Shown here: positions 19,861 to 64,000 of the stretch, piece after piece
Numbering within the stretch: the first letter of the stretch is position 1
Layout: each line of letters begins with the position of its first letter
From: Macrocystis pyrifera
Lineage: Eukaryota > Sar > Phaeophyceae > Laminariales > Laminariaceae
DNA length: 64,000 bases
Direction: 5' to 3'
NCBI GenBank assembly: GCA_031763025.1
Contig: JASSKH010000020.1
Coordinates: forward strand, 7,442,667-7,506,666
Position numbers and translations under genes: made by a program
Notes under the pieces: model-generated
Seen by the model: only the letters and a program-made list of their open reading frames with translations
Databases searched by the model: none
What the model was told of the DNA's origin: nothing

Positions 19861-20591
19861 CAAGTTTTAATTTGCTTTTAAATACCACAGGTAAACCTAG
19901 GGAATTATTCTGTACATTGTCAGATGGTAAATGAAATAATAGTAGTGTGGACAGTCCCGTGTTACTGTCGCGCAACGCAGGACACTGATTAGTACGCGAA
20001 TGAGAATCCACCAATATTGATTGGGTCGTACTGTGTTGACGAATACTTGCATATATTTATATAGTCAATCAGGAATGTTTTGGCAAGAACAGACCTACTT
20101 GCCGCTGTTATGATGTAGCACGCGCCTTCACATTTTCTCAAGGAATGAGTGGTCGGCGATATTGTTTGGGCGAATCGTATTGTCCGGCGAATATTATCGG
20201 AAGCATGTGACTATTCGGGCAGTTGGTTTTGGACTCTTTACACCTGCCGTTCGTATAGGTTATTATTGATTCAGGTCGTGATACTGCTTTGAAGGAGGCT
20301 GAAAGCCAAGTAATTATCTGGGCTCAAGTATTAGGATCATGTTTGTAGTACTTTGGAGGTGTATCGTAGATGGAAAACCAGGTGTTTTCCCAGCGAGGCA
20401 CGAATTCGGTTCTTAGTATCCGCGTGCACGAAAGGAACAAAACTGATGTTGTACCTCTAACCAACCACACACGTGCGTACCAACGAGTACCGACTTAAAA
20501 GGCAAACCTGTCCGGGGGTACGAAGTGTGACACCTCCTGCAACTGCTGGCCCCTAGAAGAACAAAACGACGCTGAAGTTCACGCTGTTTGC

Positions 20592-21110
20592 ATGTCCATC
20601 CAGACCGAAGACCCTCCCCTCTGGAGCGACCTACTTTCATCGTCTGCTCGCGGGGCAGTCCGCAGCGAACATCGGGGTCATTGCTTGAGCTGCCACGAAG
20701 CCTCACACTCCCTCAGACAGTGTAGACACCCCTTTCAAAACCTTAGCGGTATTTTGAACGCCGATCTCGGAACGCTCGGCGACGACGGCGCGGCGTCCCG
20801 CCGTTGGCAAGAACGCAGGATCAGACACGGCCGCGAGCACAAATCACGCCGAACAAACACTATAAGAGGAAACAAAAGGGTCGTTCCGGCCACTAGCGTG
20901 GGCAGCACGACGGCCAAGGTCAACAGCGCAGACAAAAAGACGACTACATTACTCACGCAGAACGAGGACATCAACAGTCTCACTCCGGCCTCCGGTGGTG
21001 GTTCGACCGCCCTTTCCTCTTCCGCCCCGGGGTTCCGCTATGGTGCTTCGTATAACTCGGGCGGAAACCCGAACGGACGCCAGCCAGACACCTTCCGCGC
21101 CGGTAGCTGA
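20592..21110 (+). pseudogene. Gag-type fragment with CCHC zinc knuckle (copy 1)
   Basis: Open frame of 172 codons. A canonical nucleocapsid knuckle, CLSCHEASHSLRQC (CX2CX4HX4C), is encoded at 20682-20723 and would bind element RNA. It continues with LGTLGDDG and ERRIRHGR blocks and a Gly/Ser/Asn-rich tail. The same order (DDPPLW, RGHCLSC, LGTLGDDGE) occurs in copy 2 at 38016-39038, where the final Cys of the knuckle is His. The ATG at 20592 is internal to the homologous stretch, so it is not a real start. Confidence 0.65.
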
Positions 21111-21460
21111 CAGGTCGACGGCGGTTCGGCCCCTCCTGCCCGTCCGCCAGTATTGCCGGGAAAACAACATGTAAATTTCACAAGATGCTCGAGTCCCAGG
21201 CTCGCTCAGCGCTCAGTGCCGACCTGCCCCGTTCCTGCCACGCAGCCGCTCAGCTTCACTTGCTTCAATCGGGGAGCGCCCGGACGTCTTCCTCGGCATC
21301 GGAAGCCCGCGCCTCAAACGCCGATCCCCTCAACTTGGCCAGAACCCGCGCGACAAACGCCGCTCTCCCGAACCACGCACCACGCAGCCCACGAGTGTCG
21401 CGCCGTCGCGTCGTTGGTTTTAGCGAGGGTATCGCCTCCCTTTGCCTCTAAGGCCATGCG

Positions 21461-21859
21461 GTGGCGGTCGGTTTGAGGTGCGGGAAGGCCAACACCGAAA
21501 CCCCGAGATCTGGGTTGAAGCCCGACTCGGCGTTTCCTCGCAATAACGGTGGCTGCTCCACCCGTTTTCCTATCAAGGAGGAGTCGACAAGATTAGCTAC
21601 CACGTCCCCCTTCCCGACCAGGTCTACAGGACGGAAGCCCTCTCCGGTGGATCCTTTGCTGCCCCCCACCCGAGCACCGTTCTTGAAGTCGTCGGCAGGG
21701 TCTGCTAGCCCTCTTTCGTCTTCACGCACGCCAGTCCACGTGCGCAGCGCTCCTTCGGCTCCAGTCCAACAGGAGCAACCGGACACTGCCCGTCGAGCCA
21801 GTGGTGACTCCACGGCCTCCGATCGGTTCAACCGGACAGCATACCCGTTAAATTCGTAA
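21461..21859 (+). pseudogene. Polyprotein linker (copy 1)
   Basis: Pro/Ser-rich frame sharing RCGKANTETP, FPIKEESTR and RSTGRKPSPVDPLLP blocks with copy 2 (37446-37916). No known fold. It connects the zinc-knuckle region to the NADAR domain. Confidence 0.5.
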
Positions 21860-22137
21860 GAATCGTCGCTCTCGTCGAGCAGAACGGGCTCAGAGCCCCT
21901 TGCTCCTCTTGATCAAGGGGCGAGACCATCGGGCGCAGCAAGAGAACCTTCCGGCGATTTATTGCTTACGGGCAATGGTGACACAGAGCCAGTATAGGTG
22001 GAACCAGTCTCGCCTCGTGCACCAGGGGCTCGGTGTTCTCAGAGAAGCACACTCTCTCCCCTTTTCACTGCAACTGCGGCCACTGACGACTCGGCACCTC
22101 CAGTCTATGACCCTACTCTCGTGTATTCAACGGAGCG

Positions 22138-22590
22138 AGCGCTACTGGTTTGGCAGTCCCCATCCTATTTTTCGCAGTGGTCACCCTCGTGTTTTGTCGT
22201 TGAGGATTTGTCATATTCCTGGGCGGAGCAGTACATGATGGCGGAAAAGGCTCGCAATGTTCAGGACTACGACGCAGCGGATCGGATCATGGCCTCGCCA
22301 GATCCGTTCGAGCACAACGCCTCGGTCGAGGCGTGCGTAACGTATCTGGGATCGCGTTCTGGAAGACGCCGTCCTTGCTGGTATTTTTGCCAAATTCACG
22401 CAAACCCCGACCATGAAGCAGCACCTATTGAGCACCGGAATCAAACGTTTGGCTGAAGCAAGCCCTTTCGACCCCGTGTGGGGCATCGGTCCCCGGGCAG
22501 ACGACTCCCAGGCGAAAGACCCCTCTCGGTGGTGTTGGAAAAACAATCTTGGAAAAGCTCTTTCCGTCGTTCGTGACAGCCTCCGTTCAA
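22138..22590 (+). pseudogene. NADAR (YbiA-like) domain inside retroelement polyprotein, copy 1
   Basis: Read across three frames, the order matches NADAR proteins: FSQWSPSCFVVEDLSYSWA, then EQYMMAEKARNVQDYDAADR, IMASPDPFEHN, LGRGV, VLAGIFAKFTQTPTMKQHLL, STGIKRLAEASPFDPVWGIG, and W..KNNLGKALSVVRDSL. The EQYM Glu, the Asp of SPFD and the WGIG block are present. NADAR enzymes cleave N-glycosidic bonds (YbiA on riboflavin-pathway intermediates; others remove ADP-ribose from guanine). Frameshifts near 22316 and 22345 break it. Its placement between Gag and protease is the same as in copy 2. Substrate in a retroelement is unknown. Confidence 0.7.
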
Positions 22591-22789
22591 GCGAGGCCGG
22601 GTTGGCACACCCTGCCCCCTCCCATCAATTTTGCACTCCGACCACGCATGACAGAATTCATGAGGTTTCACCAGCGCCGCCCCGCCCTTTGGCCGTGGAC
22701 CGCGCATGCTCTGGTCCTCCGTTGGAGTTTCGACCTGTTTCCTGACGCGCCCGCTGATCAAAGCCCCGAGGTTTTGGGTGTCGCCCCCG

Positions 22790-23314
22790 GTGTTGACCCC
22801 TCCCTCGCGCTGCGAGAACGGCCCCTGCCTCGTCGGGGGCACCATTACTCTCGACGACGCCTCTTTCACAACTAAAATTGCTGTTCACAGCGGAGCTGGC
22901 GTTCTTGCACCTTCTGGTTGGGTGGCGCTTCTTGACACTGGCTCCCGACATACTTTTATTCATCGAGTTCTTTTGGACGGCATGCTTGCGGTTGGTGCGA
23001 CATCCATCGCGTGCGAACTGAAATGCTCCCCTCGTTCTTGGGGGGGATTTGACGAATGGCCGCTTCTGAATACTTCAACAAATTTGCGCCTGAGCGTCAA
23101 ATTGATTCGAGCAAATGAGCCTCGGTGCTCCCTGGCAGTGAGGGCCTGCGCGGTTTCCTCCTCAGTGATGCAGCATGCAGTACCGCTGGGACCCGACAAC
23201 TGGATACGTTTTAATAGCCGCTCCTATCGCTCCCTACCACCTCGGCGGTCAGACCAACGCGTTTTTGTTGAGCTGAAGTTAGTTCACCACGCCTCGAAAG
23301 GCAAGTATCCATAA
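22790..23314 (+). pseudogene. Retropepsin (aspartic protease) domain, copy 1
   Basis: Frame with VALLDTGSRHTFI (catalytic DTGS at about 22933-22944) preceded by a GPCLVGGTITLDDASF block and followed by SLAVRACAV and SDQRV. The retropepsin would process Gag-Pol. The homologous DTGS at 36410-36421 in copy 2 confirms the assignment. The reading frame is long (open from 22706), but the element around it is truncated. Confidence 0.7.
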
Positions 23315-30209: not shown

Positions 30210-30350
30210 GGACACTTTGTATCCCTGGACATGTTTGCCAATTATGTCGGTACTCGTTGGTACTCACATGTGTTGATTGCTAAGATCAGCTTTATTCATT
30301 TCGTGCACGCCGACACTAAGAGCCGAGCTCATGCCTCGCTGGGAGAACTC
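30210..30350 (-). repeat. Putative LTR remnant, 3' side of element
   Basis: GGACACTTTGTATCCCTGG, then TCGGTACTCGTTGG, CAGCTTTATTC.TTTCGT and GACTAAGAGC.GAGCTC. The same blocks in the same order and orientation occur at 41800-41955. Roughly 70-75% alike by eye; exact termini not found. Confidence 0.5.
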
Positions 30351-31280
30351 CTGGTTTTCCATCTACGAAACGCCTCCCAATTGCTACAAATACGATCCCA
30401 ACACTTGAACCTCGGTAATCACCGGGCTGGCCGCCTCATTCAAGGCAGTGTCACAACACTAACCCACTCTGATGAGCCGCTTATGCAGAATCATGAACAT
30501 TTCGTGGAATCCCCAATTCCACAACTAGAACATGAGTCGAAGAAGCGGCTCCTCCAAACTCACTCCCACACCTCTGAATGGCGAGGCAACGATGTCGAAA
30601 AGGAGCGAACACAATTAGGAAAGGAAGACTTAACCCTATGGGGCAGGAACAAATCGTCAACGCAAGCAATCGCAATGCCACCTGCAACGGGGGGGGGGGG
30701 TGCGAGGAAGTTTCGTGGGAAAGCGAACAGTGAATACCAAAAACGACAAACCAAATTAACACGGAATACGACAAGAACCACCTAAACCCAGCCCACAACT
30801 CTGGAAATGCGTCCTGTTCCATAAATGAGTGGACCGACTACCCAGACGAGCGCTGACACTGGGCGAGGGGGGTAGGACGGACAAAACATGCAAGAAGCAT
30901 CGCCAATTCAGCCTAAGAAAAAATATACCAGAAACACACCGAATAGAAAACCCCTCGACCCGAAAACTCGGGAAACGTCCAGAGGTAGAAAACCTCTCCC
31001 CAACGTCCAGGAAAACGAGAAGAAAAATATATCGAGTGCAGCCGAGAAGCAAACGTCAGCCATCCACGGCGTCGCCTCAGTATTCATCTACGTTACGCTG
31101 GACCCGCCGCTTAAACGCGCTAGACAAGTGAATTTGCAGACACTAATAACCTCGTACAGCTCTCGTCGAAGCCGTGTAGCGCGTCGGAGAAAGAGGAAGC
31201 CTGATCGGTCTCGGGTCGTCAAAACATCGAACCCAATATACTCCCCCGTTAGCGTTGTGGCGCCCATTTTCCCGATCTAC
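30351..31280. other. Between the LTR remnant and pol; no domain recognised
   Basis: Long plus-strand frames (30231-30785, 30888-31439) have no recognisable motif. Probably the 3' untranslated part of the element, or sequence inserted into it. Includes a run of G near 30690. Confidence 0.35.
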
Positions 31281-32053
31281 AACAGACCGTCATCGCCGTT
31301 GGGCCCAAAATGGGCCCCGTTGGGAAGCACAGTGTTGCAATATCGGCGAAGCCAATCGGCGTGCGATACGAAGCCTTTGCCGGGTGAAACCGGATACGCA
31401 GCACTAGCCGGGTGCCAGAAACCGCCCGCTGTACTCTGAGAAAGCTCCCGTTGTGCAGCGTTGATTCTCATTCGGAGGTACAGGTGGTTGGTGTGGCGGT
31501 GCTGGGTCCGAGTGCCGGCCAGGTAGCGCGAAACGTCGAGGCGAGAAAGCTGAAGGTCCTTTTCCCCTCCCCAGGATAGACGGGATAGTCCTGTTCAGTG
31601 CGTCTCGTATATCACCACGATGACGCCGTCCACCTCTTACGGATTGTTTTCCGGTGATCGTTTCCACTTCGAGTGGTTGAAGAGGCGTCGAAACATCATC
31701 CTCGGTGACATGGTACCGGGGAATTTCTTGGAGAAGTTGTTGAGCACGTATTGCGTCAACCCCGCCGGCAAATACTTCAGCATGTCAGAACGGTCGTGGA
31801 GGTTGGCACAAGGCTTGCAGCGTTGAACTGATAGACGCCGGCGAGCATCAGCGCCGGGCATATCAGAACGAAGATCCAGATAGAGGAGCTTTGCCTGGAG
31901 AGGAGATCCGTCCGGGGTGTCCGCTGAGGAGCAGGGGCCAAGGGCGAGGACGTTGTAGGGGGGCGTCCACTTGAGTGAGAGTTTGGCCTGGAGCGTCTTG
32001 GCGTCCGTGTCGGGCTTCGCGCCCTGGCCGATAGTGGCCGCCGTATTGTACAC
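31281..32053 (-). pseudogene. C-terminal tail of pol beyond integrase
   Basis: Frames read VYNTAATIGQGAKPDTDAKTL (split here as VYNTAATIGQ + GAKPDTDAKTL), LSLKWTPPYNVLALGPC, LLYLDLRSDMPGADARRR and LPAGLTQYVLNNFSKK. WTPPYNVLALGPC corresponds to the GPY/F-type module of gypsy integrases. Shift from one frame to the next occurs near 31640. Further downstream pieces (GTVLPNGAHFGPNGDDGL) end at about 31281. Confidence 0.55.
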
Positions 32054-32099: not shown

Positions 32100-33030
32100 T
32101 CGAAAAGTGGGGAGTTGCGACGATTTACACGAGCAACAGTGAGGGTGTGGTGTTCGCGAACGATGTCGTACGATCGCTGCTAGCGGTCCGTCGCAAAGTC
32201 GCAGTAAGCGAGGTGGTCGCCGGCCAAGCTCTGGTGGGCGGCGACTCCAGCACTCTTGAAAATCGTGAGAACATGGCGTGCCAGCAAACCCATATACACC
32301 GCGTCAGGAGCCAAACTCGTGGCGGCGCTGACGGACTTGTTGTACGCGAATTCGACATGAGGTAGCTGATCATCCCAGTTGGTTTGGAGCTCGTTGGCGG
32401 CATTGCCAGCACGTTCCACGACGCCGTTTGTCGATTGGGTGGAAGGATCTGGTGGCATTTTCCGAACCTCCAAAAGCTAATAAACTTCGTGCGAAAGCTT
32501 GGAGCCGAACTCGGGGCCGTTGTCCTAGGGGATGCTGCGCGGGCATTCCCAGAAGGGAATTCATCGGTTGATGAGAATGATAGCCGTGTCCTCTGCGGTA
32601 AACGTTGCCCCTGTGACGGCGAATATCTAGGCTCGGCGGCTGAAACGATCAGTGAAAAGCCATATGTACGTATTTCCTCGAGGTGTCGCCGGGAAAGGGC
32701 GGTAATAGTCGCTGCTGACGGCGATGCCGGGTCCGTCTGTCAAGGGCAACATGCCGGTGGGCCACCGGATCGTCTGCCGCGACGCTTTCTGTGGTTATCA
32801 CTTCAAGCAGTTGCATAATCATCACCGGTTGCCGATGCTCGTACCGATCCACCAGTAGATGCGTTCGAGCGTACGGGGGATGCGCGCGGTTCCTAGGTGG
32901 CAAGAATCTGTTGAATGGCAAGCCTGCATGACTCAGGGGCGCATGCGCAGCGGCACATAAATGCGAGTAGGCTCGTCGTTCAATAACAAGGCCGTATGAC
33001 AGACCGGGCGTTGCGTGACGCAAGGGGGAG
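32100..33030 (-). pseudogene. Integrase domain (DDE) of gypsy-like element
   Basis: In the reverse complement: ERIYWWIG (end of the zinc-binding part), VSSDYYRPFPATPRGNTYI with the first Asp, DNGPEFGSKL with the second Asp, and QSTNGVVERA with the Glu, followed by LPHVEFAYNKSVSAAT. All three catalytic residues are readable, but a TAG just before DNGPEF and frame changes inactivate the ORF. Integrase inserts the cDNA into the host chromosome. Confidence 0.65.
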
Positions 33031-34121: not shown

Positions 34122-34749
34122 TTATGTGATGGGCTCCGGCAAACGGGATAGAAAATCAGCATTTCCGTTGGCGCTGCCCTTGCGGTACTCGAGGATGTAG
34201 GCGTACGCGGTGAGGAACTCGAGCCACCGCTGGACTCGCGCATTGTGGTCGCCTACCTTGCGGATGCTCTCAAGTGCTTTGTGGTACGAAAACATGTAAA
34301 ACTTCGTGACCCACAGGTAACCTCGGGGTCTTTTAATGCCCCAGATAATGATGCCAGCTTCCAGGTCCAACGGGGTCCGGTTCCTCTCTGAATCGAGGGT
34401 AGCGCTGCTGGTATAAGCAATGGGTCGGACTAAACCTCCCGGTTGTTCGTGTTCGAGCGCGGCGCACCGTCGATGAAGGCTTTGCTGTACACATGAAAGG
34501 GGTGGGAGTCGTCGGCTACGGTGTCCCTGTCAAGGAAGACCAAACCGGTGGGGCAACAAGCTCGGCGGGAATCTGGCGGACGATATCTTCCAAAGACGGC
34601 GGAACGACGTACTTAGCCCCCTTCCGGAGAAGGGCGGTGGGAGAGCGGATCCTGTTAGACAGGTCGGGCAGGAATTTGCAGTAATATTTCACGCCGCCCA
34701 TCAGTGCACGGACCTGCTTGAGGTTCTTGGGCACGGGCATGTCCATCAA
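34122..34749 (-). pseudogene. RT connection and RNase H domains
   Basis: MDMPVPKNLKQVRALMGGVK then YYCKFLPDLS is the post-RT connection (P.NLKQVR.F.G...YY..F.P). The frame 34122-34370 reads YHKALESIRKVGDHNARVQR then WLEFLTAYAYILEYRKGSAN and ADFLSRLP, the end of the RNase H of gypsy elements (R..RW...L..Y...I.Y..G..N..AD.LSR). Interrupted between the blocks. RNase H removes the RNA strand during cDNA synthesis. Confidence 0.7.
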
Positions 34750-34768: not shown

Positions 34769-35433
34769 TTAGGGCGCGTACCCGCGGGCGAAATGGAGTG
34801 ACCCAGACAAATTGTCCTTGGTGCCGAGGCGAGCCTTTGAGGGGGAGAACTTGAGGTTGTGTTTGCGCAGGCGTTCGAGGAAGGTTCGTATTATCTTGAC
34901 GTGGGCCGTCGGATCAGATTCGAAAACGATCACATCATCGAGGTATGCCGTCACCTATGCCAGACCTTTAATGACTTCGTTACTCACCTTGACGAATCAA
35001 AAAGCGTAGCACTGATGCCCTGGGGCATGACGAGCCACTCGTAGAGGCCCGTGAGAGTGTAAAACACCGTGAGAGGCACGGTGTCGTTGTGCAGTAGTCT
35101 AGTGGAACGGGGAGACCAAATCGAAGACGGAAGACACCCTGTCCCTTCCCCAGAGCGTCGAGGACTTTGGTCCACGCGAGGAAGAGGCATCTTAGTGAGT
35201 CTGCTGATCTGGCTGTGTTTCTCGTAGTTCACGGTGATCTGAAAGCTTCCAGACTTCGTCGGGGTGACCACCAGCGGGATCGCGTACGGAGAGATTGCGT
35301 GTTGGATCAGGCCTGCCGCAAGGCAATGGTCCAAGGTGGCTTCCACTCCCTTGGCCACTATGCGATTGATGCGGTGGGGCCTGGACGTGACAAGAGTGCT
35401 TCCTCCCGGGACCGAAACCAGGAAAGACATCAA
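34769..35433 (-). pseudogene. Reverse transcriptase domain
   Basis: The frame 34984-35433 reads PHRINRIVAKGVEATLDHCL, LIQHAISPYAIPLVVTPTKS (S.Y..P.V.V.KK-type block) and LTGLYEWLVMPQGISATLF (YEW..MPFGL block). The next frame, 34769-34954, has AYLDDVIVF, the catalytic YxDD motif, intact at about 34934-34945, then FLERLRKHNLKFSPSKA. A frameshift separates the two, and MPFG(L) has become MPQGI. Confidence 0.7.
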
Positions 35434-36073: not shown

Positions 36074-36577
36074 TCACTCCAGCTCGTCATCTACGCGTTG
36101 GTCTGACGGCCAAGGTAGCAGAGAGCGTTGCAAACGGCTATCAAAACGCATCCAGCTGTCACGTCCCATCACTACTGCATGCTGCATCACTGAGGAGGGA
36201 ACCACGCAGGCCCAAATGGCCAGGGAGCACATAGGTTCATTTTCTCTAAACGATGGGACGCTCAGGCGCACATTCGTCGACGTCTTCGCCGGGGGCGATT
36301 CGCCAACTACCCCCGAGAACGAGGGCTGCAAGGTTTGCTCGCACTCGATGGATGCCGCACCAACCGAAACCATGCGGTCCAAAACATCTTGTCGAATAAA
36401 CGTCTGTGGGGAGCCAGTGTCAATAAGCGCCACGCAACCGAAAGGTGCAAGAACGCCGCGTCCGCTGCGAATCGTGATTTCGGTTGTGAAACAGGCATCG
36501 TCGAGAGTACTAGTGCCCCGGACGAGGCAGGGGCCGTCTTCTGGGAGCGCGAGGGAAGGATCGATGCTAAGGGCCAC
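36074..36577 (-). pseudogene. Retropepsin (aspartic protease) domain, copy 2
   Basis: 167-codon frame containing GPCLVRGTSTLDDACF and VALIDTGSPQTFI, with the catalytic DTGS encoded at about 36410-36421. Later MCSLAIWACVVPSSVMQHAV matches SLAVRACAVSSSVMQHAV of copy 1. Its reading frame is one of the best preserved in the element. Confidence 0.7.
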
Positions 36578-36767
36578 AGCTAAAACCTCGGGGCTGTGAC
36601 AGCGGACGCGTCAGCAAAACATGTTGATACCTCTAGGGCAGGACCTGGGCATGCGTGGGGCACGACCAAAGGGCGGGGCGGTGCTGTTGAAATCTCATGG
36701 ATGCTGTCAGGCGTGGTCGGAGTGCAAAGTTGATCAGAGGAGGCGGGGTGTGCCAACTCGGACTCAC

Positions 36768-37230
36768 TTGAGCGCCGGGTGTCGCGAACGGCGGAAAGAG
36801 CTTTCCCGAGTTTGTTTTTTCCACACCAGCGGGGTCTTGAGCTTCGAAGTCGTCTGCCTGGAGACCGATGGCCTACATGGGGTCAAACGTGCTGGCTTCA
36901 GGCAAACGTTTGATGCAAGTGCATAATAGGTGCGGCTTCATGGCCGGGTTCTGCGTGAATTCTGGTAAAGCTCCAGCAAGGACGGCGCCTCCCTGAACGT
37001 GGTCCCAGATAGCGCAGTCGAATTGGTGCACGCCTCGACCGAGGCGTTTGTGCTGGCGTGGGCCTGGCGAGGACATAAACCGCTCCGTTGCGTCGTGGTC
37101 ATGAAAAATGCCAGCCTTTTCAGCGATCATGTACTGCTCCGCGCAGGAATATAACACATCGTCAACGACAAACGACGAGGGTGACCACTACGAAAAATAG
37201 TAGGCAGAATGCCAGAACAGTAGCACCCGC
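36768..37230 (-). pseudogene. NADAR (YbiA-like) domain inside retroelement polyprotein, copy 2
   Basis: Reverse complement, mostly one frame: VLLFWHSAYYFS-stop-WSPSSF, VVDDVLYSCAEQYMIAEKA, LGRGVHQFDCAIWDHV, AVLAGALPEFTQNPAMKPHLL, CTCIKRLPEASTFDPM-stop-AIGL, then after a frameshift WCGKNKLGKALSAVRD. This follows the NADAR pattern (W.PS.F..D...Y...EQYM...KA; LGR.V..F....W; F.QNP.MK..LL; EAS.FD..W.IG; W.GKN.LG.AL..VR). The two TAG codons (37188-37190 and 36873-36875) replace what are Gln and Trp codons in copy 1. Located between linker and retropepsin as in copy 1. Activity of an intact version is inferred only. Confidence 0.7.
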
Positions 37231-38015: not shown

Positions 38016-39038
38016 TTAATGGAAGCGTCGTTTGAGGCGTGGACTCCCGACGCCGGGGAAGACGGCAGGGGGCTCCCGGGTGAAGTAAGTAGAGCCACGT
38101 CGCGGTGTCGGGCAGAAGTACGGGACAAAACGTGGCAGGAGCGAAGCAGATGGGCGCTCTGCGATGAGCAATCCTGGGACGCGAGTATCTTGTTGAATCA
38201 ACGTGTTTTCTCCCCGCAATTCTGGCGGCGGATGGGCAGGAGGGGCCGAACGGCCGTCGACCTGTCCGTTACCGGCGCGGACAGTTCCTGGCGGGCGTCC
38301 ATTCGGGTTTGCGCCCGAGTTACGCGAAGCACCGCAGCGAATCCCCGAGGCGGGAGCTGGGGTTAAAGCAGCAGAGGCGGTCGAACCACCGCCGTGATGC
38401 TCGGCGTGAGACTGTTGGTATCCTCGTTCCGCGTGCGTGTTGTAGTCGTCACCTTGTCTGTGCTGTTGACCTAGGCCGTAGTGCTTCACCCGCGAGCGGT
38501 CGGAACGACACCCTTGTTTTTTCTCGTTGTGTTTGGTCGGTCTTGATTTGTACCCGCGGTGTCTGATTATGCGTTCTTGCCAACGGCGGAACGCCTCACC
38601 GTCGTCACCGAGCGTTCCGAGGTCGGAGTTCAAACTGCTGCTAAGGGTTTGAAACGGGTGTTTATGCTGCCTGGGTGAGTGTGAGTCTTCGTAGCAGCTC
38701 AAGCAGTGACCTCGGATTTTGCTGAGGTCGGCGACGCGAGCGGACAATGAACGGAGGCCGCTCCAGAGGGGAGGGTCATCGGTCCTAAACGGCATGCAAA
38801 CAGCGTGAACGTCAGCGTCATGGTGGTCTGCAAGGGACCAGCAGTTGAAAGAGGTGTCAAACCACGGGTCGAGGCAGTCAGCGATGGATTTGTTGATTTT
38901 CTTCACAAGCGGATTATTCCGCGATCCCGTTTGCCAAGCAGGCGACTCGAGGGGCGTTAAGCCCTGGCCGCGACCATTGCTGGCGAGCCGGGACCCAGCC
39001 GGCGCGGATGACCGTACACCCGTCCAAGAAGCAGGCAA
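38016..39038 (-). pseudogene. Gag-like region with altered zinc knuckle, copy 2
   Basis: 340-codon frame, the longest uninterrupted frame of this element. It contains INKSIADCLDPWFDTSFNCW, then GHCLSCYEDSHSPRQH: the CX2CX4HX4C knuckle with the last Cys replaced by His. LGTLGDDGEAFRRWQERIIR and a Gly/Asn/Pro-rich tail follow, matching copy 1. The nucleocapsid would bind element RNA. Confidence 0.65.
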
Positions 39039-39223
39039 ACAAAATTGGTTTTCGATGTTGATGGCAAGTGTCTAATATTCGCGAGAGTCGCAAACGTCAA
39101 CCACATTGAATAAAGAAATGCCCAACGGCCTCGATACCGTAGTCAAAACACCAGGGTATAGCGTGGGCATCAAGCTGGGGTACTGCTCGTTAACTGCCAT
39201 CCAAACTACTTCAGAACAAAACT

Positions 39224-41640
39224 CTACCCCCGGTGCCAAACCACGCTCAGTTCCCGTTGCTGCCGACACCACCCCTTGGAAAATACACGAATAAAATCGC
39301 AGAAGGAGGTCCTTTTAAGCACGACGAATTTAGGCACCTTGGTGTAGCTAGTCCCCATGTCGGTGAGATCGACGTGGTTGCTTAGAAACCTCAAGACGAG
39401 TGTAATCGCGTCTGGTCCCGTCGCTCCGGCTGCGAGGGCGCGCGACACATATCCAAACCCAGCATCCATCAAGGTAGTTAAGAAGGCTGTCGTGGGCTTG
39501 TCAGGGGTGATGGCAAGCGCGAAGGATTTCTGGAGGGGGTATTCTCAACCGGGGATCCAATCGGTAGAACTATGGCCCTTGCGTCTGCCATCGTTGCACG
39601 TCATGATAATATCAGACGCGGAAGCCTTGACCGAACGAGTGAGTTGTTGCGCGGCATCGGAAGGGTTAATCGGAGAGGGGAAAAGTAGGACAGAAATGCG
39701 AGAGGTGTCTTTGAGTCCCAGGTGTTTGTACGCCCGATTAACGTCGGCGGTGTGCTTTTTCCCGGCGGCTGCGGCGGCACAGTCGATCACCGATGTTCGG
39801 GCGTCAACAAGATTAGACGACACGGGCACTGCGGCGGCACAGTCGATCACCGATGTTCGGGCGTCAACAAGATTAGACGACACGGGCATGGCGCAGTCAT
39901 CGGACTTGGTCAAGCGACAAAGCAGCTCGGCGGAAGAAGCAACATCGGCGAGGAACCTAGTTGCCTCCTGAAGCGGCCTTGATCTCGGGAACGGGGCGTT
40001 TGCCGCTGACATCCGTGGAAGCGCTGGAAGGGATGGCAGGAGCTGGAAGAACTAGCATAAGAAGCTTCTCCTCGTGGCCGGTATATGCTGGACCACCCGT
40101 CGTTCGAACTCTCCTTCCCCTGGCCGCACTGTTTCCGACGTTCAGCCCTGTTTCGCCTAGACGTGGCCCCGGCTCGATCTGTACCCTGCTCACGGCAGGA
40201 GCTGCCGTTATGGCCGGCCGAGTCCCCTCCTCCGCTCGGGCGCCCGGTGTTTCGTCACGATCTCCGTGGAGGGCACCAAAATGGCGGACCAATACTGGAC
40301 AATGGCTGCCTTGTCCGTGGGAGTGAGGGGGGTTCATGCCCCAGGCAGCCGGGGGGGCGAGGCGTTGGGCACTATCGGGCTCCGCGACCGCCAGCCGTGC
40401 GTATTCCACAGCAGCCAGCGGTTCGTCCTCTGCGGCCGACATCGGCTCGTCCGCCGAGTAAGTGTACTCGTAGTCCACCGCGTTCTCCAGAGAGGTGGGG
40501 TCCGGGAGCTTGAGTGTCCGCTCTCCCGACAAGGGAAGGGAACCGTACGTCCTCAGCCCGCTGGTAGACCTGGAGGGGTTGGACGCCCTATCCCGAGTTT
40601 TTTGCCGTCCGCGACATGCGGTCGAGGGGGCGGGCGAACGATATTGGAGCTGGGTACGGTGCCGGGGCAGGGGAGGGCGGGATTCGGCGGTTGTCAGGGT
40701 CGTGGAGCGCAGAAGCAGCGGAGTCATTAGTCGCGTATTGTGCCTTAGCGACTTGTACAGCAGTGAAGAAGGCGTAGCACTCCATGCGGCGAGCGTTACG
40801 AGCGTTGGGGAAGCGATCATCGGCCACAGAGGTGTCGCAATAGAAGAGCGGTTGTCTGGCTCTTTGCCACAGTTCATACGCGTGGACACAGCAAGTGTGG
40901 TTGGTTTTGAAACGACTGCGGTACTGGGTGGCCTATTGAAATCATCGTCCCCTTCTAACAGTAGTAAAAATACTTGTGGTAGCACGAGAATCCCCGGCAG
41001 AATTGTCGTGGGTGGCTACAGCACCGAGAAAAGCAGGTCCAATACTAAACTCCAGTCTGCCACCTTGCGGCCGGGGTACGGGAAAACTGCCACGAGCAGC
41101 ACGCTCGTTTCTGGCCTTCATGCGAGTACGAGCAGGGTCGGACAGAAGTAGAATACAAGGCGGAAAATCATGCTCAAACACTCTCTCGTCTGGCCCAGGA
41201 GCAGGTAGACCCGATGGCGAAGCGCGCAGCTGCGTCGGAGTCTTCCAGGTGACTTGGACGGCAGAAGGCACGAGTGGGGGGTCAAAGCTACACAAACCAA
41301 GGCCGCGTTGGTCACGCGCGTCAGGTGCTCTAAAGGGCGAAGGCATCCAGTTGTCTTGGACGGCAGAACTCAATCACCCGAGCGAGGAGGCACGGAAGGG
41401 GTCTTTAACAAGGTCCGTCTGTCGGAGGCTGCTCGGGCTTCGCCTTGTAGCTCCGACCGAGGCTCTTGCTCCTCTCGTTGGTCTGGTGTACCGGGCGCTC
41501 GATCCACGTCGTCGTAATGGGGCTCCTGCGTAGACTTGTGCTCCTCTGGTTGGTCTGTTGTTCAAGGGGCTCGATCCCTATCGACGAGCCTTGGGCGGTG
41601 GGGCGCTGAGAGACACTGGTTCTCAGTGGCTCGGCCACCG
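39224..41640 (-). pseudogene. Gag-like N-terminal region of the element, fragmented
   Basis: Frames 39957-40985, 39545-40012 and 40942-41373 on the minus strand are Pro/Arg/Ser-rich and without a domain I recognise. Position between the right LTR remnant and the zinc-knuckle region suggests Gag or 5' leader. It contains a perfect 60-bp tandem duplication (39771-39888) and a diverged 71-bp duplication near 41467/41538. Both strands are open over long stretches because of high GC. Confidence 0.4.
39771..39888. repeat. Perfect 60-bp tandem duplication
   Basis: GCGGCGGCACAGTCGATCAC through GACGACACGGGCA occurs twice back to back with no mismatch seen. In the minus frame it doubles a VSSNLVDARTSVIDCAAA unit (20 residues), keeping frame. 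The identity suggests a recent event in an otherwise old element. Confidence 0.9.
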
Positions 41641-41799
41641 TGAGGGGACGTAGACCCTCCCACTCATGAGCCTCTATCGTGCAGTGTGCGGAGCGAACTT
41701 ACTCTAGGAAAGCAAAGTGAAAAGAAATAGCGACCAAAGGCGAGCCACCAACGAAAAGGCGAAAACATCCGAAGCCGAAGATGCCACATGGTATGGGTC

Positions 41800-41955
41800 C
41801 GGACACTATGTATCCCTGGGCAGGTTTGTCTATATAATCGGTACTCGTTGGAGCTCACGTGTGTCTTTGGCTTTTGGAGATAGAAGAAGAGCAGCTTTAT
41901 TCCTTTCGTACGCGCGGCGACTAAGAGCGGAGCTCGTGTTTTGGTGGGAAAAGCG
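41800..41955 (-). repeat. Putative LTR remnant, 5' side of element
   Basis: CCGGACACTATGTATCCCTGG, TCGGTACTCGTTGG, GCAGCTTTATTCCTTTCGT and GACTAAGAGCGGAGCTCGTG, colinear with 30210-30350. In this copy a GGCTTTTGGAGATAGAAGAA-type insertion separates two blocks. Confidence 0.5.
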
Positions 41956-55529: not shown

Positions 55530-56266
<737 letters not shown>

Positions 56267-56267
<1 letters not shown>

Positions 56268-56284
56268 GGCGTCGACGGCAGTTG
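56267..56284 (+). other. Primer-binding-site candidate
   Basis: TGGCGTCGACGGCAGTTG directly after the 5' LTR starts with TGG, as tRNA-primed PBS do. The priming tRNA was not identified. Confidence 0.45.
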
Positions 56285-56322
56285 ATAAACCAACTTGTCA
56301 CTTGTCACCTACGTTCAGAGTG

Positions 56323-57462
56323 ATGTCGGAATACGAGCAGTCCCAGTACCCCACCCCACCCCCCTACCGTGAGACCCCTGTTGATCTTGTCGAGTATAAA
56401 AGCCTATCAGAAGGGAATCGTTTTATTTTGTCGGTCATCGACCATCTCACTCGATTTGTCATCTTGATCCCCATCAAAGACAAGGCAGCTCGCACGATCG
56501 CCCGTCATTTAATCGAACGTGTGTTCTCAGTGTTTGGCCCTCCAGAAACGCTGCATTCTGATCAGGGGACGGAATTTCAAAACCAGCTAGTCCTAGAATT
56601 GCAGTCAGTATTTGGATATAAGAAAACGCGTACAGCCGCCTTCCGCCCCCAGGGCAACTCCGTCTTAGAGCGTGTCCACAGCACTGTCCACGGTATGTTA
56701 GCTATGTATAGCAATATGTCATTCGATAACTGGGCAGAGCTGTTGCCGTTTGTCCAGCTAGCTCATAACACGGCCTATTCGTCAACGCTCCAGGAAGCAC
56801 CTCATTTCCTGATGTTTGGACGCGCAGCTGTACTGCCTGTCGATCTCATTCTAGGTACGCCCTCCACCTCAGCGCCGCAATCACAGCTCGACTATTCCAA
56901 ACAAACTGTCGAAAATTTGCAATTTGCATACGAGCTGGCCCGCCGATATCTTAAAGAGCGAGCGGATAAGCAAGCGGTCGCTAATGAGACACTGTCATTT
57001 CCCAGGTTCAAACCTGGTGAACAAGTACTGATCCACCGCCCGTACAATGTCGCTGACGGTCCCAACCCCAAACTTATCAGCCCATGGCGTGGACCGTACT
57101 CTGTCCGAGCGCAATTGTCACCTGTCATTTATCGCGTCACGAAAGACGGGAACCCAGCCGAGATTACTGTTCATCTCGGCCGAATGAAAAAATACTTTGT
57201 CCCCCTGTCGTCCCATGTCCCCGACCTCGATGCGCTCGATGATATTTTTCTAGGGACCAAACTTCCCGTGCCCGATCTAGAAGGCTCCTTGTCAAAAGTA
57301 ACGATCGGTGCGTTCACGGTAGAGAGTATTGATGGACATAAAAGAGGAGTAGGCGCAGCATCTCTGACGAACTTTCAATACCATTTAAAAAACTGGAAGG
57401 ATATCCAACTCAGATGGGCGTTTGGAGGCATGTCAACGCCCTTCCCCAGTGCAGAGAAATGA
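56323..57462 (+). CDS. Ty3/gypsy integrase, intact ORF, N-terminally truncated
   Basis: 379 codons from the first ATG; the frame is open from about 56248, in the LTR edge. The catalytic triad is present: Asp21 (PVDLVEYKS), Asp80 (HSDQGTEF) and Glu116 (NSVLERVHS), with exactly 35 residues between the last two (DX35E). RFILSVIDHLTRFVILIPIK (residues 33-52) and LLPFVQLAHNTAYSSTLQEA are typical gypsy core blocks. A GPY/F-like module (PKLISPWRGPYSV) follows, then a tail past LGRMKKYF. The N-terminal HHCC zinc domain is missing; the first 15 residues (MSEYEQSQYPTPPPY) may be the fused start of Gag. Chromosomal integration of cDNA is the family function; whether this truncated form works is unknown. 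Confidence 0.85.
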   Translation: MSEYEQSQYPTPPPYRETPVDLVEYKSLSEGNRFILSVIDHLTRFVILIPIKDKAARTIARHLIERVFSVFGPPETLHSDQGTEFQNQLVLELQSVFGYKKTRTAAFRPQGNSVLERVHSTVHGMLAMYSNMSFDNWAELLPFVQLAHNTAYSSTLQEAPHFLMFGRAAVLPVDLILGTPSTSAPQSQLDYSKQTVENLQFAYELARRYLKERADKQAVANETLSFPRFKPGEQVLIHRPYNVADGPNPKLISPWRGPYSVRAQLSPVIYRVTKDGNPAEITVHLGRMKKYFVPLSSHVPDLDALDDIFLGTKLPVPDLEGSLSKVTIGAFTVESIDGHKRGVGAASLTNFQYHLKNWKDIQLRWAFGGMSTPFPSAEK

Positions 57463-59335: not shown

Positions 59336-59950
<615 letters not shown>

Positions 59951-61332
59951 CTAGTATGCTGGCCTTCCGACAATATAGCGTAGACGCCGTACCTACGTAA
60001 ACCGAATATATCCTTCCGTAAAATGCTCAAGTTTTCTTGGAGCGCCGCGACATTATTTTTTTTGTGACAATCGTCCAGTCCGTTGGTCGTTACGTTTAGG
60101 AACAAATTCGTAAAAGTTATAACTGCAGTGCTCCCCATTGTCAATTTTCGACCTTCCGGGGGCTCAAGTAGCGCCGGAGGAGACACGAACCACGAGGGTT
60201 AATCATTTCTGCTCTGGGCAGATACATGTATCGGGCTTCCTTGTAGTTGCTTTCAAGAATTCGGTGTTTTATGACCAACTACTATGCAGTACGTGATATA
60301 CCGGTATGAACGATGTTTCAATAGCAGGATCCGTAGCTTGGTACTGCTGTGATATGAAAATCCAGATACAACATGCCAAATAATCCTAATCATACGTTCT
60401 TGATCATTCTTTACTGTAGGTACATTCATGCACTAGCAAGGATCTACAAAATCCTCCAATCAAGATCCGGACCATATTCAAGGACCGGACTTCGTTGAGA
60501 TTCGGAATGATCAACACGACAGGAGGCTGTAGAGTGACGCTCGCGTTCAGTTTTAGCCTTTGTTTCCATCTTCTTGGCATCGTGTGCAGGGCGAGCTTTG
60601 GGATCCAGCTCTCGTGATCGTATTGCCTGGTAGAACGTCTGAGATGGAACAAGGAGCTGTAGGATCGAAATGCGCCACTCGCTAGCCTGCCTGCAGAAAA
60701 CACGAACATCACCTCCTGTGCTGTTGGATCACCTTCTGCTATTTTATAGGTGTGTGCTTGCTGTGATTTTTCATATACCAAGAGCAGAAGAGGCCAAGAA
60801 CATGTACGATAGTGAGATTCATCAAAAACACGTACTTGTACGTCAAGACCTGCTGCAACATTTACGGGGAGTACTAAGAAATTTCCGATGTCTTGGTGTG
60901 TATGCCACGTGTGAACTGCTGTAAACCAACTTTCGACTGTCTTGTGTACCCCGGCCCTCACGGGTCGATCTGCTGTTTCAGTGCGCGAAATGGTACTGGC
61001 CGAAATCAATTGGCAATCGAACCAGCTGTATGTATTATCGTCTCGTCGACCCTGGTGGCATCCAGGGGAGTCTCTGGCCAGTAGTCAATCGCGAGGGAAA
61101 TAATGAAAAACGCGCGCGGTTCACGCAGCTTGCAAAGTTGAGTATCGATCTGCCGATCGGTTGAACTCACAGTTGACGTGCTTTCTTAGTTTCTTATGAA
61201 ATAAAAAAATCCACCGATTTCTGGTTGATGCGGACCTCACGGGCTGACCTTTGTAGGAGATAATGCAATCCAATGCCATCAAATTAGATCCGAGAGGCAC
61301 GACATAGATATTCCACTCCTCGATCCAGCATC
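59951..61332. other. No recognised gene; one long minus-strand frame
   Basis: The minus strand is open at 60404-61009 (201 codons, ATG to stop), containing RPVRAGVHKTVESWFTAVHT and HTMPRRWKQRLKLNASVTL, with no motif I recognise. It may be an unknown protein or a relic. On the minus strand 60000-60186 reads DDCHKKNNVAALQENLSILR before the microsatellite. Neither is supported by neighbours. Confidence 0.3.
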
Positions 61333-62112
61333 GTGCCGGCCCAGATAGATACACAGCAGTATCTGCTGGATGCACTACCTCGTTCACTCTCCGGCCTGCC
61401 CCGTCCTTGGGGTGGGCCGAGGAAGCCCGCATGGACTTACAGCGGTCTAGCAGCAGCCACACGGGCATCGAGCCTCGGGCTGGGTAGAGAGGGAACCTCG
61501 CGCGGTCTGGCGAGTGAACTGTTCACTCTAAGGACCGCTCGGGGTGGTGGTGATGAGTTTTTCATTTTTAACCCGGATGCCGAGGAGTTCATCCCCGAGG
61601 CAGGACGGGTACATCACCACAACAGAGAGCGCTGCGTGGGTAACCTGGGGAGAGGAGAGGCTGCCCACCGCGTGGGTACGCAAGCGCGACAGGAAGGATG
61701 GGGGTGTCGGAGTTGGCTGGGACGGCTGCACCCAACCAACGGAAACCAAGGCGCGAACCGGGCTACAAAGCGGAGAGCCAATATTATCATAGAGGAAAAG
61801 AAGAGACAAAAAAAGCAAAAAAGGAGGAGGGGACGAGCCTCTCGTCGGCTGGCAAAAAAAGCAGCACGCGAGGCTCGTAAGAGGCGGAAGGCGGCACTTG
61901 TGGTGGTAGCGACCTACAATGTGTGTACCCTGGCCGTAAAGGGGAAGAACGGGTACGGGCATGACGAGTGCGTACTTGCGAAAGGACGCCAACTCGCATT
62001 GGTCTGCAGGAAACCCGACGGTCCGGCAACACGAGATTTCGTGCAGCTGGATACCAAGTATTTTGTTCAGGTCAGGAAAAAACAGCAGCGAGATAAGGGT
62101 TGTATGGGGTAG
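61333..62112 (+). pseudogene. LINE ORF part 1: basic leader and start of endonuclease
   Basis: 259-codon frame. A strongly basic block (about residues 148-190, with KKRQKKQKRRRGRASRRLAK) is followed by VVATYNVCTLAVKGKNGYGH, matching the N-terminal TYNV(R)TL motif of LINE endonucleases with its catalytic Asn. Past YFVQVRKKQQRDKG the frame is lost; the endonuclease continues in another frame. The usual LQET(R) block containing the metal-binding Glu is not visible, replaced by VCRKPDGPA. Confidence 0.65.
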
Positions 62113-62680
62113 GTTTAGCAGTAGAAGACTCAATATGCCGTACGTCTAAGTTCACTCAGCAGTTTATTGACGAACGACTTATGTCTATGCGCTTTGAGTT
62201 GGACGGTCGGTGCGATGCGGTTAATTTCGTCGTTGCGTACGCCCCAACTGATTGTACCAAAGACTCCAGGCAGAAAGGCATGTTCTGGCGAAAGTTGGAG
62301 GACCTGGCTGAGCAGATTCCTGCTAAAGAGTGTTTGTTTGTGCTTATAGATGCCAATGGGCGAACTGGGGGGAGGATAGAAGGGTGCGGTGATGATGAAT
62401 GTAGGGTGCTCGGAGCATACGGACGAGATGTTCGTAGTGATAACGGCAAACGGCTTTTGTCGTTCGCTACCAGTTGCAAGCTAGCGCTCACCAACACATT
62501 TTTCAGCACGCGCAAGGGCGGAATATCGCATACATACAACGGCACCAGCCTGAATGATCGTAAGCGAATCGACTACATCCTAACTCGTCAAGTCCACCGA
62601 CCCTAGAGTACATAATTTTACAGTCGTCCCACAGCCCCCACCACCTGCTAAGGCTGAGTCAGACCATAACATCGTGTACA
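62100..62680 (+). pseudogene. LINE ORF part 2: APE-like endonuclease core
   Basis: Reads YGVGLAVEDSICRTS, FIDERLMSMRFEL, VNFVVAYAPTD, ECLFVLIDANGRTG (the G/D-N catalytic block), [30 protein letters not shown] and, after a frameshift near 62590, [11 protein letters not shown] (the terminal SDH catalytic block). These blocks define the apurinic-type endonuclease that nicks target DNA for priming. Confidence 0.75.
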
Positions 62681-64000
62681 TCAAGGCCCGACTTAGTTGT
62701 CACTTTTCGTCTAACCGAAGATTGCTGAAACCCCCAAAACGTCGAGAATTCGACAGGCAGCTTTTCTTATCCGATGGAGAGCGTCGACACCGAATAGTCG
62801 AGAGGGTTGTTTCCACTCTTAACCAACCTACCCAGCCTCGTAACACGTCTGGCATGGTTGAGTTTTTCACCACAACTGTCATGAATGCTGTTGAGAAAGA
62901 GGTGCCACCTCCACCACGTCGCCACCACCGAAACGGTTGGTGTGAGACCCCCGAAACGGTGGCCGCTTTCAAAGTAGCATGGACAGCGAGGGAAGATGCG
63001 AGACAGCTCTTGCGTGTCTACCCCCGAGATAGTACAGCGTGGAAGAAGTTGAGATCCGCCTGTGCGAATCTGCAGGAAGTGGTCGCCGCAGGAGTCAATG
63101 CGTATTTTGAAGAGTACCTCGCTGAAACCGAGAAATTCCTCGCGAGTTCCGATCAACGAGGGTTCTACAAGCACCTGAAGAGTACGGTAGGGTTGCAAGG
63201 TACCAAAGCGAGGAGTGAACAGTTTATCATGGACGAGGATGGCACGCTGTTGCGGGATCAAGCGCGAATTCGTGAAAGATGGGCGGGGCACTACCACAAA
63301 CTATTGAACACGAAATCGCTGAAACTTGACCCCACGATCATCGACCTAGTGCCACCACGACCGCTGAAACTATCCCTTGGAATTGAACCATCCATTGACG
63401 AGATGATGGAAGCAGTGAAGGGTATGTCAAACTGGAAAGCCGTTGGACCAGATGGTCTCCCGGTTGAAGTACTGAAACTTGACCACCCCGCTTTCGTGCA
63501 GTATTTTCACAGTATCCTTGTTAACGTTTGGGTAACGGGAGAAGTCCCCCAGCAATGGAAAGATGCGATCATAAAAACCCTTCATAAAAAGAAGGACAGA
63601 ACTGATTGCAACAACTACAGAGGTATTTCGCTTGTTGCTCACGCAGGCAAGGTGTTGCTGAAAATCGTTGCGTCCCGTCTACTACTGCGAGACCGAGCAT
63701 ATACTCCCTGAAGAACAGTGCGGCTTCCGCCCCGCACGGTCAACAGTCGATATGCTGTTTGTCGTGCGCCGGTTGCAGCAGCTCGGGCGGCAAAAGAAAA
63801 TCCCCCTGTACATGTGCTTCATCGGCTTGCAGAAAGCGTACGACTCTGTCGACCGAGAACTGTTGTGGGAGGTACTCACACGCCTTGGTGTACCAACCAA
63901 GATGCTCACAATCATTCGCAATTTTCACGAAGGCATGCGGGCCCGCGTGCGTGCGGATGACGGTGAACACTCGGACTGGTTCAATGTAACCCAGGGACTG
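62674..64000 (+). pseudogene. LINE ORF part 3: reverse transcriptase (partial)
   Basis: 345-codon frame 62674-63711 with [19 protein letters not shown] and [20 protein letters not shown] then [20 protein letters not shown], the RT N-terminal motifs 0-2a. After a +1 frameshift near 63680 it continues [39 protein letters not shown] and [19 protein letters not shown]. Motif A is F-I-G-L where F-I-D-L is expected; the GGC codon at 63824-63826 replaces the metal-binding Asp. Confidence 0.8.

Follow-up and report, generated by a model that had tools for sequence, protein, structure and literature searches.

A decayed Ty3/Gypsy-type long terminal repeat (LTR) retrotransposon of a NADAR-bearing kind almost certainly lies within the stretch of the brown alga Macrocystis pyrifera genome analyzed here (assembly GCA_031763025.1, contig JASSKH010000020.1, positions 7,442,667 to 7,506,666 of the forward strand). 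This whole stretch of 64,000 nucleotides is referred to as the window, and all coordinates are given within it. The element is represented by a minus-strand copy (copy 1) and by a second decayed copy on the plus strand (copy 2, 20275-23306), which likewise carries NADAR. Both copies are broken, and no intact element was seen in the window.

The open frame at 36873-37187 on the minus strand (104 amino acids) matched the Pfam NADAR profile (PF08719) at E = 7.3e-20 and 72.3 bits, over profile positions 19-127 of 163 and against a Pfam cut-off of 35.1 bits. This match confirmed the preliminary description of the window, which had placed a NADAR domain at 36768..37230, and motifs that it had listed were located on the minus strand: AEQYM at 37142-37128, LGRGV at 37043-37029, PEAS at 36902-36891 and the C-terminal motif WCGKNKLGKALSAVRD at 36828-36781. 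What had been presented as a domain with the full order of motifs is split over two frames in copy 1. The C-terminal motif lies in a separate frame (36580-36882, minus strand; profile 139-161, E = 0.0084, under the Pfam cut-off), a stop replaces the W of 'DPVWGIG' (the W133 position), and a 4-nucleotide gap relative to copy 2, upstream of the C-terminal motif, shifts the frame. With a stop and frameshifts, copy 1 is dead. Its domain belongs to the NADAR superfamily and, because E125 is present, to the YbiA subfamily. In the numbering of the Phytophthora NADAR described in PMC11543638, which we used throughout, Glu rather than Asp or His occupies this position of the last strand in 13/13 element-type rows that have a residue aligned to it, the two window copies among them, and the element domain has what marks the YbiA fold.

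On the minus strand, the zinc knuckle is followed by NADAR, the DTGS of the protease, reverse transcriptase (RT) with YLDD at 34945-34934, and RNase H (Table 1), the knuckle and DTGS being recognized by eye. RT and RNase H stand in the right order for a Gypsy element by Pfam, the protease match is weak and the integrase was recognized by eye; with these gradations, the placement of NADAR between Gag and protease in a Gypsy-type element, as first proposed, is supported. Segment 34987-35451 resembles upstream RT by eye and had no Pfam match, nor had 31407-31784, the possible place of a chromodomain after the integrase, where the region is heavily broken. A search for the copy 1 integrase with that of a neighboring element gave no convincing match (E = 0.28, located elsewhere). 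The long terminal repeats are represented by related direct repeats, one at 30212-30457 and one at 41798-41952, with another beside copy 2, and because the relics of copy 1 are 71% identical, the insertion is old. Upstream of the copy 1 gag open reading frame (ORF) there is also a perfect 60-bp tandem duplication at 39769-39888.

Copy 2 aligned with copy 1 by BLAST (20525-23306, plus strand, against 38862-36049 reversed) at 78% identity over 2855 columns, and 2204 of 2747 ungapped positions were identical. It is without 5′ gag, because its LTR relic stands directly before the Gag C-terminal region, where the zinc knuckle CX2CX4HX4C is preserved by eye at 20682-20723. Its NADAR domain matched Pfam in two parts, profile 8-73 at E = 1e-8 and profile 84-163 at E = 2.4e-21, and retains the W of DPVWGIG. 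Since copy 2 has the domain too, the NADAR fusion is ancestral and older than both copies.

Table 1 Features of the two NADAR-bearing copies in the window.
Feature	Coordinates	Strand	Basis
Copy 1, 5′ LTR relic	41798..41952	-	71% identity to 3′ relic over 155 columns
Copy 1, Gag C-terminal region (ORF), decayed zinc knuckle 38705-38664	38016..39071	-	Motif by eye; no Pfam match
Copy 1, NADAR (YbiA-type) domain, broken	36768..37226	-	Pfam PF08719, motif positions, alignment to copy 2
Copy 1, retropepsin-like protease remnant, ALIDTGS 36430-36410	36074..36610	-	Pfam Asp_protease_2 E = 0.1, under cut-off; motif by eye
Copy 1, RT piece with YLDD	34772..34954	-	Pfam RVT_1 E = 3.7e-7
Copy 1, RNase H domain (RT_RNaseH)	34122..34529	-	Pfam PF17917 E = 6.3e-16
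Copy 1, integrase remnant, split over frames, NGVVERAG 32428-32405	32183..32794	-	By eye; no Pfam match
Copy 1, 3′ LTR relic	30212..30457	-	78% identical to the copy 2 relic (20275-20528); matches 5′ relic
Copy 2, LTR relic adjoining Gag C-terminal region	20275..20528	+	Match to 30212..30457
Copy 2, NADAR, open in two pieces (21998-22453, 22341-22742) that differ in frame	22148..22577	+	Pfam
Copy 2, protease remnant, ALLDTGS 22925-22945	22664..23314	+	DNA alignment to copy 1; no Pfam match

A search with a single NADAR fragment found two database proteins. Searching with alignment A1, seeded with element rows, we scored 7996 candidates and obtained 5838 matches, of which 19 among the best 120 were inspected, so that eukaryotic NADARs closer than these, and further element-type rows, may exist. 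With P0002 taken from the single-fragment search, thirteen relatives were labeled element-type by common sequence (P0002, P0008, P0009, P0011, P0012, P0015, P0023, P0026, P0030, P0031, P0036, P0043 and P0087). Their flanks alone, with NADAR removed, were then compared with the window. For 7 of the 13, the flanks matched the element linkers at the correct place at E ≤ 1e-3 (P0012 1e-18, P0036 2e-6, P0009 1e-5, P0008 3e-5, P0015 6e-5, P0011 3e-4, P0002 5e-4). Matches were weak for P0030, P0031 and P0043 (0.007-0.022) and absent for P0023 and P0026, and P0087 is without any flank; of the eight proteins used as controls, four algal or EukProt and four bacterial, none matched at that place at 1e-3. 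In P0012, NADAR can be read in a single frame together with the element's upstream linker, and by this likeness it is surely the same element. A search with a single read-through frame, in which stops were entered as X and residues 1-139 were scored, had 407 candidates; none of them passed E ≤ 0.001, and no polyprotein-length gag-NADAR-Pol relative was seen.

Four further relatives are stand-alone NADAR proteins: P0039 from Pylaiella littoralis, P0050 and P0060 from Ectocarpus, and the EukProt entry P0042. All four matched Pfam NADAR with E-values no worse than 1.1e-50, and the one other Pfam match was a sub-threshold phage-family match in P0039. The first three share a Cys/His-rich N-terminal extension without a Pfam name (LPGCS.PC...YC in both P0039 and P0060, with a similar pattern in P0050). 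Viral contig searches returned 0 loci with the single fragment, 9 with alignment A1 and 86 with A3, of which 80 were kept; a phage search with P0060 returned 698 records, every one below 60% identity.

Residues of the ADP-ribose site were counted over 15 element-type rows (13 from the database and 2 from the window), taking at each position the rows in which a letter is aligned. E43 was conserved in 15/15, K50 in 14/15, R79 in 13/14, W89 in 10/14, E125 in 13/13, D130 in 11/14 and W133 in 12/13; the second half of P0002 is out of frame, as are P0011 and P0031 near W133, and those letters say little. Judged from the alignment, E43, K50 and E125, which hold ADP-ribose in solved NADARs, are thus preserved in nearly all 15 sequences. 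Mean conservation among element-type rows was 0.90 at the seven site positions versus 0.77 at the 98 other positions (p = 0.013). In the comparison of copy 1 with copy 2, NADAR differed at 39/148 third codon positions versus 47/300 first and second positions (p = 0.006); the corresponding counts were 47/178 and 72/357 for the protease (p = 0.065) and 57/267 and 109/538 for gag (p = 0.39). The codon pattern weakly suggests that NADAR was under selection before the copies died.

Taken as a whole, these observations are best explained by a NADAR-bearing Gypsy element whose domain removed ADP-ribose to shield the element, a reading that we regard as evenly poised between right and wrong. In Gypsy elements in general, a position within Gag-Pol implies packaging in the particle. 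The active ancestor would have carried a YbiA-type NADAR at the start of Pol, between the Gag zinc knuckle and the protease, and because of this position the domain is predicted to have been produced with Gag-Pol and packaged. The putative ADP-ribosyl hydrolase could then have freed guanine bases of the element RNA or complementary DNA, or particle proteins, of ADP-ribose, and would thereby have protected the element against a host defense based on ADP-ribosylation. Such protection by a particle-borne hydrolase is a tentative proposal, which we think somewhat more apt to be wrong than right. Its anti-defense side would follow by analogy with RNA viruses, as discussed in PMC9503650. Conserved ADP-ribose-site residues make protection against ADP-ribosylation plausible, and PMC11125620 and PMC11543638 report that the NADARs they tested, which come from several subfamilies, hydrolyze guanine-linked ADP-ribose.

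A number of points weigh against this reading. Several element-type rows are assigned from the tree alone. W89, a pyrophosphate contact, is replaced by G in 4/14 rows (P0023, P0026, P0030 and P0043), which form one clade with support of 100/98 in the 89-row tree described below, and the existence of this W89-less sub-clade argues against protection from ADP-ribosylation being needed universally. The R93 contact is R in 2/14 rows and K in 10/14. The codon signal, being absent in gag and weak in the protease, may reflect chance among three tests. In addition, all six relatives whose frame continues past WRGK (P0008, P0015, P0023, P0026, P0030 and P0043) depart from the canonical C-terminus, and the Pfam match stops at 148 or 149 of 163 in the five scanned (P0008, P0015, P0023, P0030 and P0043). 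Copy 2 is canonical through 163, and its protease-side linker is open in a different frame. Either a sub-lineage swapped the last helix via a one-base shift, or a frame change at this place is part of Pol synthesis; the six relatives are an unfair sample, because gene callers prefer open frames.

Alternatively, the domain might have had no role in defense and have served RNA metabolism of the element itself, such as the processing of its RNA intermediate, or have acted on a small-molecule NAD derivative. RNA processing was put forward as the role in Ectocarpus and oyster elements in PMC12477816, and the association of NADARs with RNA-repair systems described in PMC9503650 points the same way. 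We nonetheless consider it unlikely, given the activity of the tested NADARs on guanine-ADP-ribose and the preservation of E43, K50 and E125, with RNA still a possible substrate. The loss of W89 in a well-supported clade of four rows and the altered C-terminus of six relatives would suit a structural or nucleic-acid-binding module whose catalysis was lost or was being lost, so that the fold alone mattered; this is quite improbable in view of the invariance of E43 and E125 among rows with a letter and the higher conservation of site positions than of the 98 others. Chance insertion of a host or bacterial NADAR fragment beside a dead element, which the decay of both copies might suggest, is ruled out by the second copy and has a negligible probability, since the copies are ~78-80% alike across gag, NADAR and protease, the flanks of 7/13 relatives match the element linkers (best E = 1e-18) and a NADAR-Gypsy lineage has been published (PMC12477816).

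If the domain is indeed an active ADP-ribosyl hydrolase, brown-algal retroelements would be evidence for eukaryotic hosts turning ADP-ribosylation against mobile elements. So far, this has been argued for phages and their bacterial hosts and for RNA viruses, according to PMC11125620, PMC11543638 and PMC9503650.

Phylogenetic analysis placed the element NADAR next to algal proteins. A quick tree, built from 212 rows, recovered the 15 element rows as one clade and the 4 algal-type rows as another (support 99 each); the two clades together made up one side of a branch whose support was 90 (not starred). A second, careful tree had 89 rows and comprised 14 element-type rows (P0002, 49% filled, was excluded from the careful trees), 4 algal-type rows and 71 others, namely the 40 nearest in the quick tree and every fifth remaining row; here the joint element and algal clade received 100/97. 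With 50 viral loci added (97 rows; the first 50 of 80 loci, duplicates dropped), the joint clade received 100/95, with the bootstrap not fully settled, and no viral rows fell between the element and algal domains in this tree. Approximately unbiased (AU) tests did not reject grouping the element with 26 bacterial rows and the algal rows outside (p = 0.352), or grouping the algal rows with the 26 bacterial rows (p = 0.348).

In these trees, the sister group of the element NADAR is the four stand-alone proteins, three of them named as brown-algal. The phylogeny favors, without proving, that the element domain and the brown-algal proteins share an origin; it also favors exchange between host gene and element, in either direction, and a direct bacterial source of the element domain may also account for the data (AU p = 0.35). 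An extended scenario, in which NADAR was exchanged between a brown-algal host gene and the element, rather than taken directly from bacteria, and was retained to undo a host ADP-ribosylation defense, is rather unlikely; if true, it would mean an ADP-ribose-based arms race within a eukaryotic genome. Because of the kinship to algal genes, brown-algal genomes already available could serve to test the origin.

Other possible mobile elements are also visible in the window. A 485-bp direct repeat, 99.8% identical, occurs at 55783-56267 and 59336-59820, and an integrase ORF (56236-57462, plus strand; rve E = 3.9e-10) starts at the end of its first copy; together these are perhaps a young second LTR element. 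At 61288-63711 on the plus strand, ORFs resemble a non-LTR retrotransposon by eye (endonuclease, RT start), and the one ORF of it scanned, 62584-63711, had no Pfam match.

Among the matches listed in the open-license PMC literature, judged by titles and the starts of abstracts, PMC12477816 (Dinatale et al. 2025) was the one report of NADAR in retroelements. It places NADAR at the Pol N-terminus in all families of one of four Ectocarpus Gypsy lineages, exemplified by Gypsy-12_Ec32, and also in ORF1 of several Tx1 long interspersed nuclear element (LINE) families of oyster. The NADAR-Gypsy architecture is therefore already in print, which answers the question in the preliminary description whether such elements had been reported, and the window copies add one more member, a decayed one. 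Novelty of the kind hinted at in that description is unsupported, and its concern that the domain might be missing from family members elsewhere is answered, as far as this paper goes, by the reported presence throughout the lineage. The same paper proposed transfer since blastp without Ectocarpus gave almost only bacterial matches, whereas here the sister group is brown-algal stand-alone proteins; the two views are compatible if bacteria first donated the gene to algae.

Compared through its published description rather than a consensus sequence, the Gypsy-12_Ec32 lineage resembles the window element in having NADAR at the Pol N-terminus; the window copies differ in being old and broken, with RT in pieces. 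The NADARs of RNA-virus polyproteins and oyster Tx1 LINE ORF1 likewise lie inside a polyprotein or retroelement protein, but they belong to different classes of virus or element and are known here from the literature. The Phytophthora nicotianae NADAR (PDB 8bau) and E. coli YbiA (2b3w) share the fold and most ADP-ribose-site residues, and differ as stand-alone proteins outside any retroelement with 18-25% identity in structural alignments. P0039, P0050, P0060 and P0042 form the sister clade and share the FWQPPS domain start with the element, from which they differ in being open reading frames without retroelement parts by Pfam.
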